A DNA stretch of 11,080 bases from Actinomycetota bacterium (lineage in GTDB: Bacteria; Actinomycetota; Coriobacteriia; Coriobacteriales; RUG844): positions 1 to 11,080 of the forward strand of contig JAAXUU010000018.1 of the NCBI GenBank assembly GCA_013335845.1. Reading direction: 5' to 3'. The notes under the pieces were generated by a model. It worked only from the letters and a program-made list of their open reading frames with translations, searched no databases and was not told the origin of the DNA. Of this stretch, positions 2,760 through 11,080 are shown in pieces (within the stretch, counting starts at the first letter, position 1; each line of letters begins with the position of its first letter). Made by a program: the position numbers and the translations under genes.

Positions 2760-2787
2760 GACCCCGGTTGCCCTAGCGATCGGGGTC
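2760..2787 (-). terminator. Possible hairpin terminator overlapping the end of the LuxR-type gene
   Basis: GACCCCG at 2760-2766 pairs with CGGGGTC at 2781-2787 around a 14-base loop that contains the minus-strand stop codon (2773-2775). The stem is GC-rich, but neither strand has a clear T-run after it. It lies between two convergent genes and could stop transcription from either side. This is weak evidence. Confidence 0.35.
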
Positions 2788-4215
2788 GATCATATCGAGA
2801 AGCTCTTTCTTGCTATGGATACCCAGTTTGCGGTAGATATTCTTCATATGACCGCGCACGGTATTCTGTGAGATGAACAGGCGCTCACTGATGGATACGA
2901 CACTGTGACCGCGAACCAGCAATTCGAGCAACTCTCCCTCCCGCGTAGATAGACCGTGTGTGTCTGCAAGCTCATGCGCCCGTTGTTCGAAAGACTCGAA
3001 GGCGCTCTCCTGCCCAGTGGAGACGGTGGCCACCGTCTCAGTCATCTCGTCATCGAATGTCTCGTTCTTCCTACGGAATATGAAGAATAACGCCAAAGAC
3101 AAAAGGTAGATAGCTCCCAAGGCAACGCCGGTGAAACGCGCGAAATCGGATATCGTCTCAGATGAGAAAAGTCCTCCGACGAAATACCCCGATGCCATAG
3201 CGGCCAAAACAGCCCCCATAGAGATGCCGTATATGACGATGGGAGATAACCTTTCTTGATGCGCCGCTTCGGCGATAACCATAATGAGCGAAAGGTTGAC
3301 GATCTCGAAGCCGAACATCACGAACGCGAGCAATACATTGCCATAGGCGCCGCCCAAAAACGGCAACAGCAGAAACGCTCCGGTTACCACGGGGAATAAC
3401 ATCTGATAGATGCGCAGCAAGTGCAAGGTCTTCCCCGAGAAAAGTGCGAAAGCCGCCAGTATCGCAGCGGCACACGCGAATCCGAACAGTGTAAATGAGA
3501 CCGTCATGGTCGTCGTAGTAATGCGTGAGAGCATCTGCCATACGAACGCGAAGGTCACGACGCAGAATGTCGGACGCCAGAGTTTGAGGACAACCTGGTG
3601 GTACGCAACCGCATCCACCGAGAACCGATAGACCTCAGTAGTATTCAGGCTCCTCTTCAGACACCATGTGGCAATGCCGGGTAAAACGATTCCGGCAAGC
3701 ACCAACGCCGCCTCTACAGGTAGTACGAGTGCGATGACGTAAAGCACCACGGAGATCGTCGCGGTCAAGGGGATATAGAGACTCGCCCGCTCCGGTCCGA
3801 CAGCTGCGAAAAACGTTTGCCAAAGCAGGAAGAAAAGCGCGTTCGCAACACCCAGCAACAATGCTGCGACCAATGCGAGCGCAAGGGAATGAGCGGGAAC
3901 GTACAAGCCGAGAAAGGCGCAGATGGTTCCGACGCCCAAGGTGACGCCCGCGACCGGGATACACCACGAAGGTAATACCGACAACCTGTTGCGATAGATG
4001 AAGGCGATTGCCAACGGAATGGCGGCTACGAGGATCTTCTCGACGCTATTGAACCAGTTATATGCGTTGGCGTCCGGTATGCAATAGCTTGAAGCCCAGA
4101 GAGCGATGAATGTCACCGCCCAAAAGAAACTGAAGCCAAGATACTCGAATCGTATCTTGCGCAAAGTTTCGAAAGGATTCGCTTCCGGATTTTCTCGAGT
4201 ACCACGTTCTGTCAT
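2773..4215 (-). CDS. Membrane-spanning LuxR-family transcriptional regulator (480 aa)
   Basis: The first ~380 residues form about 12 hydrophobic segments (roughly 25-45, 57-74, 83-104, 108-133, 146-183 as two, 213-235, 240-260, 270-285, 293-317, 325-345, 360-378), giving an MFS-like bundle. A charged linker of about 40 residues follows. Residues 422-480 form a LuxR-type helix-turn-helix: LSTREGELLELLVRGHS, then SISERLFISQNTVRGHMKNI and YRKLGIHSKKEL. This architecture is typical of Eggerthellaceae, where the membrane half is thought to sense a ligand and the tail binds DNA. The ATG at 4215 is preferred, with GAGGG 10 bases upstream. An in-frame TTG at 4263 would add 16 residues of non-family sequence. 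The gene is divergent from the reductase at 4498, which is its likely target. The ligand is unknown. Confidence 0.9.
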   Translation of the reverse strand: MTERGTRENPEANPFETLRKIRFEYLGFSFFWAVTFIALWASSYCIPDANAYNWFNSVEKILVAAIPLAIAFIYRNRLSVLPSWCIPVAGVTLGVGTICAFLGLYVPAHSLALALVAALLLGVANALFFLLWQTFFAAVGPERASLYIPLTATISVVLYVIALVLPVEAALVLAGIVLPGIATWCLKRSLNTTEVYRFSVDAVAYHQVVLKLWRPTFCVVTFAFVWQMLSRITTTTMTVSFTLFGFACAAAILAAFALFSGKTLHLLRIYQMLFPVVTGAFLLLPFLGGAYGNVLLAFVMFGFEIVNLSLIMVIAEAAHQERLSPIVIYGISMGAVLAAMASGYFVGGLFSSETISDFARFTGVALGAIYLLSLALFFIFRRKNETFDDEMTETVATVSTGQESAFESFEQRAHELADTHGLSTREGELLELLVRGHSVVSISERLFISQNTVRGHMKNIYRKLGIHSKKELLDMIDPDR

Positions 4216-4497
4216 CAACCTATTACCCTCATAGTCCCCAACTCTGCCTCGGTGGCTCCCCAAGTCTCAGAGGTTCTATTCACTGTGTTCCATTTTACTC
4301 GATTCCCTACTACAAAAATCCGTGATGACTATAAATGACACGGAATATGTGGTGAGCCTGTGAAGCGAAGTAACTATAGTGTGGCGACAGGGAGACGCGA
4401 AAACGGCCGAAAGCGCTCTCTTGTTTACCGGGGTGCTTGCATAAAGCACGCGCAGTTCCGTACTGAGATTCGAAACTGCGTATCGAGAGGAGTTTGA
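4216..4497. promoter_or_regulatory. Divergent control region between membrane LuxR regulator and reductase
   Basis: These 282 bases hold no gene and must carry promoters for both directions. TCCGTG at 4319-4324 with CACGGA at 4339-4344 forms a 6-bp dyad around an AT-rich centre containing TATAAAT, a candidate operator. TATAGT at 4373-4378 could be a plus-strand -10 box, but no good -35 is seen. On the minus strand TAAAAT near 4292-4297 could be a -10 box. A near-perfect hairpin at 4451-4480 sits before the reductase ribosome binding site. Promoter positions are guesses. Confidence 0.4.
4451..4480 (+). promoter_or_regulatory. Leader hairpin just upstream of the reductase ribosome binding site
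   Basis: CGCAGTTCCG at 4451-4460 pairs with CGAAACTGCG at 4471-4480, nine of ten pairs, around a 10-base loop. It ends 5 bases before the AGAGGAG ribosome binding site (4486-4492). It could be an RNA leader structure or a DNA operator. The reductase at 9866 also has a hairpin upstream of its ribosome binding site, but with a different sequence. Confidence 0.45.
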
Positions 4498-6171
4498 ATG
4501 TTCGAAGAAACAAATGTACGAAAGGGTCTTTCTCGAAGAGACCTTCTGAAAGGTGCCACATTAAGCGCCGCAGGCGTCGCCGCCATGGGGATGTTGAGCG
4601 GTTGTGGAGCCAACGGTTCGAGCGCATCAAGCGATGCTCCTGCTGCCGAGACGAACTTGCACTCATGGGAGATCGCCCCTGAGCCCATCGCCGACGCTGA
4701 CATCGCCAGCACCGTCGAAACCGAAGTTCTTGTCATCGGTGGAGGATACTCGGGAACTTGTACCGCCGCATCTGCCGCAGAGCAGGGACTGAAAGTCATC
4801 TTGGTTGAAAAGGACGACGTACTCAACGGACACGGCGTCGGAGGAACCGGTGCCTTGGGTTCTCGTATGCTCGATCAGTACACCGATTACCACATCGATA
4901 AGCCCATCAACGCCGAGCGTTGGATCAAAACCTGCGGAGGCCGCTGCCGCGAGTCCTTGGTCGCCAGGTACTTCTCGGAGTCAGAACGCTGTATGAACTG
5001 GCTCCTCGACATCTCCGACGCAGACGGTGCTCAGTGTCTGATCACGGCGAATGCATCGAACAGCGAAGTCCACAAAGAAGAACATTCCTATCACATGATC
5101 GTCGGCGGAGCCATTGGTGAAACCAGCACGATGGCCAACGCATGCGAATACCGTTTCGAGGCATATGCGAAGAGCTTCGGCGCTGAGTTCGTCTACAAGT
5201 CACCTGTTGTGCAGCTCGTCCAAGATGAAAGCGGTCGCGTGATCGGAGCCATCTGTGAGACCGAGGGTGGCTATGTGAAGTACCTCGCCGACAAGGGTGT
5301 CGTTCTCGCTACGGGAGACATCAGCTACAACGACGAGATGCTCGAGTATTTCGCCCCTATCGGCACAAAGGTCATGACGCGTTTGTGCGGCGACACCGGC
5401 AACGTCGGCGATGGCCACAAGATGGCACTTTGGGCCGGCGGCGCATTCCAGGATGGTCCCTGGCCGACGATGATGCACCCACAGGCGGGGGCATTCTTCC
5501 ACGGCCCCTTCATGTTCGTCAGCCCCGAGGGTAAGCGTTTCATGAACGAGGGCACCTGGGTGCAAGGCAAGTGCGTTGGTATCATGACTCAGGCGAAATC
5601 CGACTTCGCATGGTCGGTTTTCGATAAGAACTGGCAGACCGACCTCATCAACGGTCTCCCCTACGGCGGAGGTATGTTCTGGGATAGCTTCCGTATGTTC
5701 GGAACCGATTTCCAGGATGCCGTCGATTACTTCACGGGTGTCGTCACCGAAGGTATCGCCGACGGAAGCGGTAACTACCTCGTCGCAGACACGCTCGAGG
5801 AGCTTGCTGCCGCGATGGGAATCCCAACTGAGGAATTCCTCGCTCAGACCGAACGCTACAATACGATGTGCGCAGCAGGGGAAGACACCGATTTCTACAA
5901 GGAACAGGTCTTCCTGACACCCGTGAAAGAAGGCCCCTTCTACGCATGCAAGATCGGAACCGGCCTCTTGGCTGTTGTCGGCGGCGTGCATATCTCCGAT
6001 AACAACGAGGTATTGTCAGCCGATGACACCGTTGTCGAAGGTCTCTACGCGGTTGGAAACGTATCCGGCGATATGTACGCATACGACTACCCGATCAACA
6101 TCCAAGGTAACTCACATGGACGTTGCTTGGTCGGCGGCAAGCTACTCGGAGAGTACCTGGCCACTGTGTAG
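4498..6171 (+). CDS. Tat-exported FAD-dependent lipoprotein reductase, FrdA/FccA superfamily (557 aa)
   Basis: Residues 12-19 are the twin-arginine motif SRRDLLKG. A hydrophobic stretch and lipobox LSGC with Cys36 follow, predicting a folded, exported, lipid-anchored protein. A Ser/Ala-rich linker leads to the Rossmann FAD motif at 77-105 (VLVIGGGYSG, with Glu104 for the ribose). GDGHKM is at 304-309, MMHPQ around His327, and EGKRFMNEGTWVQGK at 344-358. The C-terminus carries DYPIN (530-534) and GNSHGRC (537-543). Compared by eye with Shewanella FccA, His365 is kept as His327. The TEAVRG loop with Glu378 and Arg381 is missing, Arg402 is replaced in TWVQ, and His504 and Arg544 are lost. Fumarate is thus unlikely, and an unknown organic acceptor is more probable. 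No FMN-binding or haem domain is present. AGAGGAG at 4486-4492 fixes ATG 4498. The divergent LuxR gene is its likely regulator. It is monocistronic. Confidence 0.94.
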   Translation: MFEETNVRKGLSRRDLLKGATLSAAGVAAMGMLSGCGANGSSASSDAPAAETNLHSWEIAPEPIADADIASTVETEVLVIGGGYSGTCTAASAAEQGLKVILVEKDDVLNGHGVGGTGALGSRMLDQYTDYHIDKPINAERWIKTCGGRCRESLVARYFSESERCMNWLLDISDADGAQCLITANASNSEVHKEEHSYHMIVGGAIGETSTMANACEYRFEAYAKSFGAEFVYKSPVVQLVQDESGRVIGAICETEGGYVKYLADKGVVLATGDISYNDEMLEYFAPIGTKVMTRLCGDTGNVGDGHKMALWAGGAFQDGPWPTMMHPQAGAFFHGPFMFVSPEGKRFMNEGTWVQGKCVGIMTQAKSDFAWSVFDKNWQTDLINGLPYGGGMFWDSFRMFGTDFQDAVDYFTGVVTEGIADGSGNYLVADTLEELAAAMGIPTEEFLAQTERYNTMCAAGEDTDFYKEQVFLTPVKEGPFYACKIGTGLLAVVGGVHISDNNEVLSADDTVVEGLYAVGNVSGDMYAYDYPINIQGNSHGRCLVGGKLLGEYLATV

Positions 6172-6205
6172 TCAAGAACCGTACTCATCGCATCATCCTG
6201 TTAAG

Positions 6206-6244
6206 AAATCGGACCCGGGAATATGTTTCCGGGTCCGATCTTTG
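6206..6244 (+). terminator. Rho-independent terminator of the reductase gene
   Basis: A stem of about 14 pairs (6208-6221 with 6226-6239), including one G-T pair, has the core CGGACCCGG/CCGGGTCCG. The loop is 4 bases, and CTTT follows. It lies 37 bases after the stop at 6171. An A-run precedes the left arm, so it may also serve the convergent coiled-coil gene ending at 6297. Confidence 0.85.
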
Positions 6245-6296
6245 CGGCTCGCTTCAATTTGGTGTAGCTTCTTAGGCTAAACGTAATGTCCTCGCT

Positions 6297-6806
6297 TTAC
6301 TCCTGCGCATTGTCGAGGTTATCCTGCAGTTTTTCGCAACGTTCGAGCGTCGTCCGGTAGTCCTCTTGGAACCGGTCGATCCCCTGAGTGAGACGCGTGA
6401 ATTCCTCGTCCCCGAGAAGAGCGCTCCGGGATTCCTCCTCACTTGCAAAAGTTCCGCTCGAAAGCAGATCGCGAAACTCGTTCTCAAGACGTTGTAACGG
6501 CCCTTTTCTGTAGCCGATCAGTTCGGCCGAGAGGAACATCTTGCGCATCGCCCGTGCGACGCCTTCCTCGTCTTCGTTCTTCTCGGCAGTCTTGACTGCG
6601 TTTTGCGCTGCATCATAATCCGCCTGGAAGCCATCGATCTCTCGTCGAGCGTGTGTGATTCTTTTGCCGAGACCCTCCAATAGTCGCGCTTGCTGAGCAC
6701 GCATCAGTTCCTTATTCTTCTCTTCCATCGCGGGCAGAGCATCTAGCAAGCCCTGAAGATGCTCGCATGCCGAATCTAGTTCCTGTTCGATTTGCGTCAT
6801 ATCCAT
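6297..6806 (-). CDS. Hypothetical coiled-coil protein (169 aa)
   Basis: I do not recognise this family. The sequence is highly charged, with almost no predicted beta structure and no signal or membrane segment. Long heptad-like stretches run through about residues 4-85 (IEQELDSACEHLQGLLDAL and onward) and 135-168 (LTQGIDRFQEDYRTTLERC). They are joined by a more variable middle containing RKMFLSAELIGYRKGPLQ. It is probably a cytoplasmic helical bundle or dimeric coiled coil. ATG 6806 is supported by GAGGGGA 8 bases upstream, and a possible -10 box TATGAT lies further upstream on the minus strand. It lies 153 bases downstream of the zinc peptidase gene on the same strand, so it could be co-transcribed or have its own promoter. 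Confidence 0.75.
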   Translation of the reverse strand: MDMTQIEQELDSACEHLQGLLDALPAMEEKNKELMRAQQARLLEGLGKRITHARREIDGFQADYDAAQNAVKTAEKNEDEEGVARAMRKMFLSAELIGYRKGPLQRLENEFRDLLSSGTFASEEESRSALLGDEEFTRLTQGIDRFQEDYRTTLERCEKLQDNLDNAQE

Positions 6807-6959
6807 GTAATCGGTCCCCTCGAATCGTGATCTCCTATAGTAATATCATAGGGCGGGTTATTTTGCAGGACATATTCCATGTGGTCTTGCAATTACATGC
6901 CCAAAGCAATAGAGAAGTGATTGCAGGACGCCATTATATTCGGATGTCGGCAGCTGCGG

Positions 6960-7841
6960 TCAGGAGAGCGACTCGCCCAGCACTTCCTTGAAGGTGTCCC
7001 CCTGATTGATATCACCGGTCTGATAACCAAGATTAAACCAGTAAGCGCGCTGTTCAGAGGTGCCATGCGTGAAGGAGTCCGGCACGACCTGACCTTGGGT
7101 CTTACGCTGGATGGCATCATCACCGATTACCGCGGCAGCGTTCAAGGCTGCGTCGATGTCACCACTTTCCAATATCTGCTGCTGCTCGTGAGCGAAGACA
7201 CCGGCAAAGAAGTCAGCCTGTAACTCCATAGCCACCGAGAGCTGATTTGCTTCGGTCTGTCCGACTGTGGCTTGTTTTGCAGCGACAGCATCGGCGATAC
7301 CCAGCTGCTTCTGAACGTGATGGCCGACCTCATGGGCGATGACGTAAGCAACGACGAAGTCACCACTCTCGGCGCTGACATCCGTTTTGACCCGAGCTCC
7401 GAACTCGGTACGAAGTTGTTCGAAGAACGACATATCCAGATAGATGGTCTCCTCCGAAGGCATATAGAAGGGCCCCATCGCCGCCGAAGCGAACGACCCG
7501 CTTTCGGTCTGGACGCTATCGCGATAGAGCACAAGCTGGGGCTCGCGGTAATCCATGTCATTTTGTAAGAAGATCTCGTTCCAGACGTCCTCGGTGTCGG
7601 CCACGATGGTCTCGACATAATCCAGCTCTCGCTGCTCTTGGGCTGTCAACTCACGGGTTTCGGTTTGTGTAGTGCCGCCGACAGTCTGCGCGAGATCGAT
7701 CAACCCCGAGGTGTCGGTGCCCGTGAACAGGCCGAAAAGCATCAGTCCTACGACGATAAGCCCACCCACACCGCCTATCATACGTCCGGATAGGCGTTTG
7801 TCTGAAACATTACCGCTTTGTCGTCTGCCCGTCCATTTCAT
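6960..7841 (-). CDS. ypfJ: YpfJ-family neutral zinc metallopeptidase (293 aa)
   Basis: The protein begins MKWTGRRQSGNVSD, the usual start of this family. One membrane segment follows at about residues 21-41 (IGGVGGLIVVGLMLFGLF), so the C-terminal domain lies outside the cytoplasm. The zinc-peptidase motif HEVGH at 170-174 gives two His ligands and the catalytic Glu. ELQAD at 206-210 is likely to supply the third ligand. The conserved tail FTHGTSEQRAYWFNLGY is present. Length is normal for the family. Physiological substrates are not known. ATG 7841 is chosen over a GTG at 7850 because homologues start at MKW or MRW. AGGGAG lies 11 bases upstream of the ATG but only 2 from the GTG. The gene is divergent from the LuxR gene at 8163 and has no obvious functional tie to it. 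Confidence 0.92.
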   Translation of the reverse strand: MKWTGRRQSGNVSDKRLSGRMIGGVGGLIVVGLMLFGLFTGTDTSGLIDLAQTVGGTTQTETRELTAQEQRELDYVETIVADTEDVWNEIFLQNDMDYREPQLVLYRDSVQTESGSFASAAMGPFYMPSEETIYLDMSFFEQLRTEFGARVKTDVSAESGDFVVAYVIAHEVGHHVQKQLGIADAVAAKQATVGQTEANQLSVAMELQADFFAGVFAHEQQQILESGDIDAALNAAAVIGDDAIQRKTQGQVVPDSFTHGTSEQRAYWFNLGYQTGDINQGDTFKEVLGESLS

Positions 7842-7971
7842 AGTTGCCACTTCTCCCTAGGCCTTGGGGTCTGTTTGCGTCTTACGGGAAATTACTCCAG
7901 CGAACCTCATAGTCCGTCCGTACTGCTGATTCTATACTGATTATGAGTCGCTAGCCTAAAAATTGGGAGAT

Positions 7972-8010
7972 TTGTAATACGAGGTTGTAATACTAGGTTG
8001 TAATACTAGG
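7972..8010. repeat. Three tandem 13-bp direct repeats
   Basis: The unit TTGTAATACTAGG occurs three times end to end (7972-7984, 7985-7997, 7998-8010). Only one base differs, G for T at position 10 of the first copy. It lies about 150 bases upstream of the LuxR-type gene and 130 bases from ypfJ. It could be an array of regulator binding sites or a slippage-prone repeat. I see no copy elsewhere in the window. Confidence 0.85.
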
Positions 8011-8091
8011 AGTGGCAAAACACCGGATGGTTCGCTTGAGTCGAGGAGCTGTAAACGAAGCAATCGGTCCATGTCCACGGTTTAAACTATA

Positions 8092-8124
8092 TCGGGATAT
8101 TCCACGCATCGGATATCATCCCGA
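8092..8124. promoter_or_regulatory. Inverted repeat upstream of the second LuxR gene, candidate operator
   Basis: TCGGGAT at 8092-8098 and its exact complement ATCCCGA at 8118-8124 are separated by 19 bases. The dyad covers the region where a -35 box would sit relative to TAGAAT at 8133-8138. That position suits autoregulation or repression of the downstream regulator gene, but the binding protein is unknown. Confidence 0.35.
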
Positions 8125-8162
8125 CAATCTGCTAGAATAGTTCTCCAATAGGGACTATGGGG

Positions 8163-9686
8163 ATGCAGGACATATCAAAGGTTGGCGCTCCGGTGATGAA
8201 TGACCGAGATTTCATGGAAGACACAGAGACTCCTATGAGAAAGGAGAGCCTCCGCCTTCGCGGTTCCTACCTTTTCTTTTCCTGCCAATTCGCCGCTCTG
8301 TTCTTGCTTATGCGGATTCCTTCGTCCGTGCAAGCCATCTCACTATCGAACCCGATGTCGGACACTATCTTTTTCATAGCCTTTCTAGTCGCGTGCATCG
8401 TAGCCTCGCTTTGCATGACACTCGGCTCCATCAACTCGGTGAGGATTCTCTCGAATCCACCTCTCCTGTTCAGTGTGTTCCTTGTCGTTGCCGGAGGGAC
8501 CCTACTCGGCCTTTGTCAGTTCGGCATCACCGCGCCGAACGTATATTTCACCTTATCGGCAGTACTCATCGGCTTCGGCAATACCGTTTTACTCCTGTTT
8601 TGGGGGCGTGCGTATGCCCGCTTGGAACAGCGGGAATCCCTGCTTCACACAGCGATCTCTTTGGGAATCGCAGCGATCATCGGCTTGGTTATATCCTTCA
8701 TCTCCCTCCCTTTGGAACGCCATATCGTCATCGTGCTTCTCTTCCTTGTATCGGCACTTCCACTCGAAAGGACCTCCCTCCTCATCCCCAAAGATGAGGC
8801 AGACAGGCAGAACACTCCTACCAAACTTTCAGAGCTTTTTTCTCAAACATGGAAGACTCTTCTCGGCACCGCACTTTGCTGTTTGATCGTCGCTTGTCCT
8901 TGGGGGACTTCCTTGGCTCTCGATAGGTTCGCCGTTTCGACGACTGTCGGTATCGAAAAGAGCATCGCACATATGTTGGTTGCGCTCATGTTCACCTTCG
9001 TGATCATCCTCCGCTATCGGAAGAACGAGCCTACGCATGAGTACCAGAAGTATTCCCCCCTTGCCGGAGCCGCCCTACTTCTCGCTTGGTTCTTATCACT
9101 TGTCTTGAGCTCGACCGGGAACTCCTCTTTCATCAACAGCGTCGACATCGTCTCGGGCATCGGTTCCGCATTCTTCTTCATCGCTCTCTGGGCGAACTTG
9201 GCGGATGTTTCAAGAAAGAGTGACATCGATTCCTCCATCGTATTCGGTGGTGGTGTCGCCTTCTTATCAGGCGTGACACTGCTTTGCATTCCCTTGGCTC
9301 TCGTATTGAGAGAGGCCACCGAATACGTGACTCCCGCATTCATCGTCCTCTATCTCGCTACCATCGGACTGAACGTCGGTCGAAGCAAGGACAAGGACGA
9401 GCCCGGCCGAGAAGCAACCAAAGAAGCCGGACTCGGCGAAGGGGTGCTTGAAAAACGCTGCGTGATGATAGGGAGATCGTACCGTCTTTCTCCCCGTGAA
9501 AGCGAGATCCTCCCCTACCTCGCACAAGGGCATAGCGCAGCCTATATCGCAAAACATCTCTGCATCTCCTTCAATACGGTCAAGACCCACACGAAACGGG
9601 TCTATGAGAAGCTCGGCGTCCATTCACGCGACAACCTCATCGCCTTGATCAATTCCATGGATATCCCCCTCACTCAAGAGGATTAA
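8163..9686 (+). CDS. Membrane-spanning LuxR-family transcriptional regulator (507 aa)
   Basis: A short charged N-terminus is followed by about 12 hydrophobic segments over residues ~35-400 (first near GSYLFFSCQFAALFLLM). A charged linker rich in Lys, Asp and Glu leads to a C-terminal LuxR helix-turn-helix at 442-507: LSPRESEILPYLAQGHS, IAKHLCISFNTVKTHTKRV, YEKLGVHSRDNL. It has the same architecture as the regulator at 2773-4215, but the membrane half is clearly diverged, which suggests a different ligand. ATG 8163 is preferred because AGGGA (8150-8154) lies 8 bases upstream. ATG 8157 is only 2 bases from it. Later in-frame ATGs (8196, 8235) are also possible. The gene lies 179 bases upstream of the reductase at 9866 on the same strand, its probable target, with a hairpin and a separate promoter between them. 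Confidence 0.9.
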   Translation: MQDISKVGAPVMNDRDFMEDTETPMRKESLRLRGSYLFFSCQFAALFLLMRIPSSVQAISLSNPMSDTIFFIAFLVACIVASLCMTLGSINSVRILSNPPLLFSVFLVVAGGTLLGLCQFGITAPNVYFTLSAVLIGFGNTVLLLFWGRAYARLEQRESLLHTAISLGIAAIIGLVISFISLPLERHIVIVLLFLVSALPLERTSLLIPKDEADRQNTPTKLSELFSQTWKTLLGTALCCLIVACPWGTSLALDRFAVSTTVGIEKSIAHMLVALMFTFVIILRYRKNEPTHEYQKYSPLAGAALLLAWFLSLVLSSTGNSSFINSVDIVSGIGSAFFFIALWANLADVSRKSDIDSSIVFGGGVAFLSGVTLLCIPLALVLREATEYVTPAFIVLYLATIGLNVGRSKDKDEPGREATKEAGLGEGVLEKRCVMIGRSYRLSPRESEILPYLAQGHSAAYIAKHLCISFNTVKTHTKRVYEKLGVHSRDNLIALINSMDIPLTQED

Positions 9687-9830: not shown

Positions 9831-9865
9831 CTCAATCGAGGAGTAGGTCAAGAAAGGGAGTGCGC

Positions 9866-11080
9866 ATGGAAACAACAGATGGGAGCACGACAGTACGCGG
9901 GTCTTCTCGGCGAGATTTCCTCAAAGGGGCTGCCGTAAGCGCAGCAGGTATCGTAGGCGCGAGTCTTCTTAGCGCGTGCGCCGCAAAGACCGATAGCAGC
10001 AGCACCGCGGTTGCCGCCACTGAAACCGCAGCGAGCACCTCCGGAAACGTTGCAGGTTATTGCGGACCCGGGGACTGGCTGGGAGAAGCACCGGCAATCG
10101 CAGATGCCGACATAACGAGCGACGAGACCTACGATGTCGTCATCTTCGGAAGCGGTCACTCGGGAGTAGGCGCTGCAATGGCAGCTGCTGACAAAGGCCT
10201 CAAAGTGGCTGTCGTCGAAAAGCAGGCATGGAGCGCATTCGTCGACCTTGAGGGCACCGGCGACAACATGGCCGGTTGGTACGGCGAGGATATCGGGCAT
10301 GTGAATTCGCAATTCCTGATCGACAGAGGGTTCGGCCCTTACAACACCGGCGAGATAGCACTCGAATTCTGCAAGCGCGGCGGTAACGGACGCGTCAATC
10401 CCGATATCATCAAGGCGTTCATCCAGAACTCGGGCGCGATGTTCGATCGCTACCATGAGATTTACAACACCTACGAAGCCGAGAGAAAAGCGAACGACAG
10501 CAATGTCTTCATGAAAGGGACGATGGTCGTCATCGATGGCGAGCCGGTTCCGGACGAAGGCAACTTCGACATGAGCAACATGTTCGAGTATCCCCTTTGC
10601 AACACGCAAGCTGCCTATGCCGTCGATTCGTACCCCATCAATAGCGGCGGATACAAGACATGGCCATGCAATGCACAGTTCTACGGTTATCAGGGCAACA
10701 ACATCGAGTACATCCACAAATACATCGTCCAGTATGCACAGGAGAACGGCGCCACCTATTATTTCGAGCATACCGGCATCAAGTTGGTCCAAGACGAAAG
10801 CGGCGCGGTCACCGGCCTTATCGCCCAGAATGCAGAGGGTAAGTACATCAAGCTCAACGCCACCAAGGGTGTCATCCTGTGCTCCGGCGACTTCATCGGT
10901 AATCCCGCCATGTGCTGGGCGTTGCTGAACGAGGGCATGGAGTGGGGATCGCGCGGCGGATCGACCGCCGAGGATTGGGCGACCGCCGGAACGCGCGACG
11001 GTATCGGGCACAAGATGGGTGTATGGGCAGGCGGCATGATCGAGCCGACTCCGCGCGGGTGGCTGTCTCTCGGTGGTGGC
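9866..11080 (+). CDS. Tat-exported FAD-dependent lipoprotein reductase, N-terminal 405 residues (3' truncated by window edge)
   Basis: The frame is open from ATG 9866 to the last base. AAAGGGAG ending at 9860 places the ribosome binding site 5 bases upstream. Residues 14-21 are the twin-arginine motif SRRDFLKG, and the lipobox LSAC has Cys38, so the enzyme should be exported and lipid-anchored. A Ser/Thr/Ala linker leads to the Rossmann FAD motif at 91-119 (VVIFGSGHSG, Glu118). GIGHKM is at 379-384, the counterpart of GDGHKM in the other two reductases. Compared with the 4498-6171 enzyme, about 60 extra residues lie between these two motifs, including a segment rich in Asn, Tyr and Phe. It is therefore a separate subfamily, probably with a different substrate. 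The catalytic and C-terminal regions are cut off. The LuxR gene immediately upstream is the likely regulator. Confidence 0.93.
   Translation, partial: METTDGSTTVRGSSRRDFLKGAAVSAAGIVGASLLSACAAKTDSSSTAVAATETAASTSGNVAGYCGPGDWLGEAPAIADADITSDETYDVVIFGSGHSGVGAAMAAADKGLKVAVVEKQAWSAFVDLEGTGDNMAGWYGEDIGHVNSQFLIDRGFGPYNTGEIALEFCKRGGNGRVNPDIIKAFIQNSGAMFDRYHEIYNTYEAERKANDSNVFMKGTMVVIDGEPVPDEGNFDMSNMFEYPLCNTQAAYAVDSYPINSGGYKTWPCNAQFYGYQGNNIEYIHKYIVQYAQENGATYYFEHTGIKLVQDESGAVTGLIAQNAEGKYIKLNATKGVILCSGDFIGNPAMCWALLNEGMEWGSRGGSTAEDWATAGTRDGIGHKMGVWAGGMIEPTPRGWLSLGGG

Follow-up and report, generated by a model that had tools for sequence, protein, structure and literature searches.

A Tat-type flavin reductase subfamily of gut Coriobacteriales and its linkage to a small helical protein

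The described enzymes closest to the reductase analysed here are UrdA and FccA, a ketosteroid dehydrogenase, VprA and Cgr2. In the published account of urocanate reductase (UrdA), Arg411 corresponds to Arg402 of FccA (PMC7921117), and we infer that UrdA Arg560 is likewise the counterpart of FccA Arg544. For 3-ketosteroid Δ1-dehydrogenase (KSTD), Tyr487 and Gly491 are described as promoting keto–enol tautomerisation of the steroid (PMC5348764). VprA is reported to reduce vinylphenols (PMC10295242), substrates without a carboxylate. Cgr2, the digoxin reductase of Eggerthella lenta, is reported to be without six of seven Frd residues; loss of its Tyr532 had no effect in that account (the Y532F variant kept activity), and Gly536 mattered (PMC5953540). 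For the same species, three membrane LuxR proteins of like architecture (DadR, HcdR and CadR) are described as genetically shown, substrate-specific activators, and 50 such LuxR genes are counted near flavin enzymes (PMC9734109).

The stretch of DNA analysed here (the window, 11,080 nt) comes from an Actinomycetota genome and carries a flavin reductase gene, a divergent regulator gene and a gene for a small helical protein (Table 1).

The reductase and its family

The central open reading frame, P0001, is intact and encodes a 557-residue protein with a FAD_binding_2 domain (PF00890). Its Tat motif, this domain and the adjacent membrane LuxR-type protein of the 10–12-segment class (10 segments in the window protein, counted by hydropathy only) assign P0001, as predicted from its sequence, to the Tat-exported flavin reductases of Eggerthellaceae type. 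A Tat-type motif occurs in 29 of the 31 rows of the A1 alignment, and the remaining two (P0002 and L016) are without an N-terminus. By pattern search, 20 of the 29 rows carrying the Tat motif also have a lipobox; six of the other nine read FGC, and three (L015, L024 and L029) have no cysteine there. The LSGC sequence of P0001 makes a lipid anchor likely. In the dinucleotide-binding motif, Gly81, Gly83 and Gly86 are invariant across the combined alignment of subclades A, B and C. FMN_bind was not among the Pfam matches of P0001.

A scan of named genomes identified 32 relatives at 54–66% identity, in Gordonibacter, Eggerthella, Paraeggerthella, Adlercreutzia, Slackia, Raoultibacter, Rubneribacter, other Coriobacteriales MAGs and four Firmicutes MAGs. 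The Firmicutes-labelled relatives (L005, L015, L024 and L028, at ~60–65% identity) reflect either gene transfer or wrong binning. In a quick IQ-TREE tree of 103 rows, both window proteins and the family members form a single clade of 60 rows (SH-aLRT 100) that shares the PTMMHPQ, TWVQGK and DYPIN motifs. The Frd yardsticks form a separate group (support 99), and long branches elsewhere in this tree leave the deeper joins unsure. Subclade A contains 36 rows including P0001 (support 100), the other 35 being 54–69% identical to it; subclade B contains 16 rows including the truncated P0002 (support 99), and subclade C contains eight with weaker support (87). P0002 is 75–81% identical to 12 subclade B members from other genomes. 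We judge the P0001 family to be a new subfamily within an established type of flavin reductase.

The window genome is the sole member of its genus among the genomes scanned. Its family comprises three genomes, the other two of which gave no match at 1e-120; the genus and family counts place it near, and not inside, the family (f2) that is the source of most relatives. An A-type reductase is present in at least 33 of the 297 genomes of the order, where A-type means at least 58% identity with a partial check by tree, and some matches may have been missed because four candidates were scored per genome. On one MAG contig (L034), the reductase is split into two ORF pieces.

Table 1. Positions of the genes and reductase motifs within the window
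Feature	Window position	Strand	Remarks
Truncated subclade B paralogue P0002	2–892	+	Runs off contig start
Divergent membrane LuxR-type regulator	2773–4263	−	GerE 9.6e-16; 10 hydrophobic segments
Flavin reductase P0001	4498–6171	+	Subclade A, TWVQGK/DYPIN family; PF00890 7.5e-45
Tat motif SRRDLLK, residues 12–18	4531–4551	+	Direct reading
Lipobox-like LSGC, residues 33–36	4594–4605	+	Direct reading
FAD dinucleotide-binding motif GGGYSG, residues 81–86	4738–4755	+	Pfam match from residue 77
PTMMHPQ, residues 323–329	5464–5484	+	H327 in 60/60 rows
TWVQGK, residues 353–358	5554–5571	+	V355 at FccA Arg402 column, 60/60 rows
DYPIN, residues 530–534	6085–6099	+	Y531 at KSTD Tyr487 place; Y531 or N534 opposite FccA Arg544; Y531 in 56/58 rows with a letter
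Partner protein, 169 aa, all-helical	6297–6806	−	Profile A2; without TM segment by hydropathy

The helical partner and the gene neighbourhood

The protein encoded beside the reductase belongs to a family of ~165-residue, all-helical proteins that accompanies subclade A. Its model consists of five helices (pLDDT 97.2). Neither Pfam nor NCBIfam gave a match for the window protein, and none of ten homologues scanned against Pfam at E up to 1 rose above the cut-off; the best match below it linked L014 with the helical sensor domain HBM (7.4e-07; 29.3 bits versus 29.8). A profile search of the PDB returned no convincing kin, its best hit being a Mediator subunit chain (E 0.0037). The family is apparently undescribed, as judged from these libraries and from a limited literature search.

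Of the 32 subclade A loci fetched, 25 have a partner homologue next to the reductase, as detected with a profile grown from the window protein. The fetched loci with no partner are L015, L020, L022, L024, L027, L028 and L032, the last of which ends inside the reductase. Adjacency is circular for the 18 rows of the A2 profile, because A2 was built from reductase neighbours, and a search of whole genomes with A2 is the better test of linkage. This search found matches in 39 of the 297 genomes of the order. The partner is present in all 33 genomes in which an A-type reductase (at least 58% identity) was found, a count over related genomes, some of the same species. It lies <1 kb away at 29 of the 33 A-type places (26 on the same strand), and at 8 of 35 places of lower identity. 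Thirty-seven of the 45 partner places lie by a scored reductase and four more directly downstream of a family reductase (604–617 bits); the last four had no family reductase within the stretch of sequence examined.

Our best guess, from the helix content, the lack of TM segments and this linkage, is that the partner is a cytoplasmic maturation chaperone. It would hold the apo- or FAD-loaded enzyme in the cytoplasm before Tat export. The complete co-occurrence in A-type genomes would equally fit an obligate structural or electron-transfer subunit. Such a subunit, however, would have to act without a TM segment and with no obvious export signal by eye, and the only invariant residues among the 18 partner rows (L20, P25, M27, A40, L115, Y150 and L154) do not amount to a conserved set of cofactor ligands; we regard this assignment as rather unlikely. 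An unrelated neighbour kept in place by chance or synteny is very improbable: gene order is common to related genomes and some family members have no partner, but the pair recurs in Eggerthellaceae, other Coriobacteriales MAGs and one Lachnospiraceae MAG, on either strand (opposite to the reductase in L005, L030 and the window) and accompanied by LuxR or LysR genes, and 41 of the 45 partner places adjoin a family reductase.

Two Firmicutes MAG relatives without the partner have a neighbour of ~270 residues, at 7579–8394 (−) in L024 and 7718–8530 (−) in L028. These two proteins have no Pfam match and are similar to each other by eye. The L024 reductase gene (5563–7506, from an Oscillospiraceae MAG) also has an extra N-terminal stretch before the reductase that is FMN-binding-like by eye, which would point to a flavinylated domain as the entry site for electrons. 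A search of the window's own genome for FMN_bind, as a mark of an electron donor, found two proteins, both on other contigs. These two matches, in L169 and L170 (C264 and C215), are probably fusions, since their ORFs of 651 and 662 residues have the lengths of two flavin-reductase ORFs on the same contigs.

A LuxR homologue lies near the reductase in 18 relatives and in the window, making 19 of 33 clustered sources. By analogy with the E. lenta regulators, the divergent LuxR protein is probably a substrate-responsive activator. LysR genes occur near the reductase–partner pair in L123 (4056–4958) and L005 (8515–9405), and L123 also has a LuxR gene further off. No catabolic gene that might hint at the substrate is prominent among the neighbours in the conserved clusters. 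In some genera the locus lies, by eye, between ruvB-like and queA-like genes. Elsewhere in the window, a third Tat-type flavin reductase (9860–11080) is truncated at the contig end and has a membrane LuxR gene (8157–9686) just upstream on the same strand, and the product of the gene at 1961–2698 combines a Fer4_19 domain with two matches to the CDGSH iron-binding domain.

Active-site residues and the likely substrate

The AlphaFold model of P0001 (31 rows; pLDDT 82.9, pTM 0.84) has the two-domain fold of UrdA and FccA, which are its best Foldseek matches (UrdA 6t86, TMt 0.84; FccA, ~0.60). Δ4-KSTD 4at0 (0.74) and KSTD 4c3x (0.69–0.72) are also close. In contrast to UrdA and FccA, P0001 has no counterpart of Arg402/411, Arg544/560 or His504/520 and no FMN or heme domain, so that Arg411, Arg560 and the N-terminal FMN domain of urocanate reductase all find no equivalent.

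The preliminary description of this DNA had judged most FccA residues to be missing, and the alignments bear this out. Val355, where a helix begins in the model, stands opposite Arg402 in phmmer, two MAFFT alignments and hhalign, and Leu491 stands opposite His504 in two MAFFT alignments and hhalign. The residue opposite Arg544 is Tyr531 (two MAFFT sets) or Asn534 (phmmer, hhalign and another MAFFT set), and never Arg. Both members of the Glu378/Arg381 relay fall in a loop that is 8–9 residues shorter, with Arg381 opposite Phe334 (hhalign, one MAFFT set) or His335 (phmmer). FccA and four Fcc/Frd yardsticks have Arg at both the R402 and R544 columns. The truncated paralogue P0002 carries the same replacements as P0001, again as first read. 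The one residue thought to be retained, His365 as His327, depends on the alignment: phmmer pairs the two, whereas hhalign pairs W322-P-T with H365-P-T. The Frd-like yardsticks L111 and L116, from Fusobacteriaceae plasmids, read HPTVVH, with the second His at the H327 place.

As features that might set the enzyme apart, these losses do not survive comparison with its paralogues. The window's own genome has 58 PF00890 places; 39 ORFs from the fetched loci matched the A1 profile, 30 of these were at least 430 residues long, and removal of five of another flavoprotein type left 25. Arg occupies the Arg402 column in none of the 25 (one row is gapped there), and Tyr occupies the Tyr531 column in 22. 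The genome that encodes Cgr2 (G058, apparently E. lenta DSM 2243) has 64 PF00890 places, and among 49 flavin-reductase ORFs of at least 400 residues from its fetched loci, two carry an Arg where FccA has Arg402; in this alignment the column for Arg544 shifted to N534 and was excluded from counting. One of the two, L182, serves as a positive control, with an NRLG motif and, in the His504 column, a His. Given both counts and the published precedent of Cgr2, residue loss is the rule and not the exception. FccA was dropped as a yardstick, Arg402 being kept by no counted paralogue of the window genome. It is the wrong yardstick because a Tyr in the position of Tyr531 follows the pattern of ketosteroid dehydrogenase, vinylphenol reductase and Cgr2.

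Residues invariant across subclades A, B and C are H327, P328, Q329, W354, V355, K358, W395 and D396. The two exceptions at Tyr531 are L034, a MAG sequence in which the frame is broken, and L128, which is misaligned at an unreadable stretch. Two of the proton donors suggested earlier were dropped as too variable within the family: His335, described as conserved, is His in 29 of 36 subclade A rows (Ser in seven), 16 of 16 in B and 4 of 8 in C, and Tyr529 is Tyr in only 25 of 35 A rows, 0 of 15 in B and 0 of 8 in C. Weak conservation makes both poor candidates. The third, Tyr531, is conserved, but its role as donor is countered by the dispensable equivalent in Cgr2.

Tyr531, in the YP motif, aligns with Tyr487 of the solved KSTD (4c3x), whose chain numbering presumably carries a 20-residue tag offset. 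It is also the counterpart of Cgr2 Tyr532, since both correspond to KSTD Tyr487. Because Tyr532 is dispensable in Cgr2, Tyr531 more likely orients or polarises the substrate than donates a proton. Any role for Tyr531 in P0001 is a proposal by analogy, given that Cgr2 Y532F kept activity, and the loop that holds it (529–538) is one of the regions modelled with least confidence (pLDDT <50). KSTD Gly491 is replaced by Ile535 in P0001 and by Ile or Val in the family.

Two described enzymes share this pattern in part. VprA (NF053717) is the best NCBIfam match of P0001, and the yardstick taken as VprA (L114, 783.8 bits versus a cutoff of 600) carries Asp where FccA has R402 and Tyr where P0001 has Y531. 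P0001 itself is not a VprA by NF053717 (153.2 bits versus the curated cutoff of 600), and, unlike P0001, L114 starts directly at the FAD domain without an export signal. Cgr2 resembles P0001 as a Tat-exported PF00890 flavin reductase that has a LuxR gene in its cluster and is without most Frd residues. It differs in its operon partner Cgr1, its Fe–S cluster(s) and Gly536, as reported in PMC5953540, and its similarity to the A1 profile is low (115.6 bits).

The earlier expectation of a non-dicarboxylate acceptor gains support: P0001 has lost the Arg donor along with the residues known to bind carboxylate, and its Tyr531 corresponds to the Tyr of KSTD, VprA and Cgr2. From the KSTD/VprA active-site pattern, the acceptor would bear a carbonyl or phenol oxygen. 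If P0001 instead reduced fumarate or another carboxylate, the acid could be bound by Lys358, Arg399 and Arg542, which are conserved in 60/60, 59/60 and 56/58 rows, about as well as the polar set considered below, and UrdA and FccA are the closest folds. Against this stand the loss of every tested FccA residue except the uncertain His, the separation of the Frd yardsticks in the tree and a Tyr531 common to enzymes of non-acid substrates, and we consider a carboxylate reductase improbable. Oxidative use of P0001 as a KSTD-like dehydrogenase is more doubtful still. It would accord with Tyr at the KSTD Tyr487 place and with KSTD among the close folds, but the yardstick L115, which is called a 3-oxosteroid 1-dehydrogenase solely by its annotation (its 527.5 and 518.6 bits lie below the NCBIfam cutoffs of 789 and 788), has at the Arg402 column a Tyr, probably the KSTD base Tyr318, where P0001 has Val355. 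To our knowledge, the exported flavoenzymes of this kind studied to date are all reductases, which also argues for the reductive direction.

A proposed respiratory module

We favour, as reasonably probable, a Tat-exported and probably lipid-anchored, substrate-inducible FAD reductase that uses an organic non-dicarboxylate compound as terminal electron acceptor and has a dedicated maturation partner. A shared carrier would relay electrons to the reductase from the quinol pool of the membrane, and an activated C=C bond would then accept a hydride from FAD N5. As in ketosteroid dehydrogenase, the carbonyl or phenol oxygen may be held by Tyr531 together with a nearby backbone amide. With Val in the place that the donor usually takes, the proton would be supplied by water or by the polar residues that are invariant or nearly so (His327, Gln329, Gln356 and Lys358).

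More tentatively, the reductase and its partner may form a two-gene respiratory module found across gut Eggerthellales and exchanged with Firmicutes, in which a reductase without an Arg or Tyr donor needs the helical partner for FAD loading or export. The acceptor could then be a compound common in the gut or in plants whose use in respiration has so far gone unnoticed.

Gut Eggerthellales encode flavin reductases by the dozen, and for most of these no acceptor is known. The residue anomaly is ordinary in this group, and the linkage to the helical partner is the part worth following. The family is widely shared and occurs in the apparent E. lenta DSM 2243, a strain with genetic tools. The divergent regulator offers a handle for substrate screening, and the partner may aid the expression of such reductases in active form.
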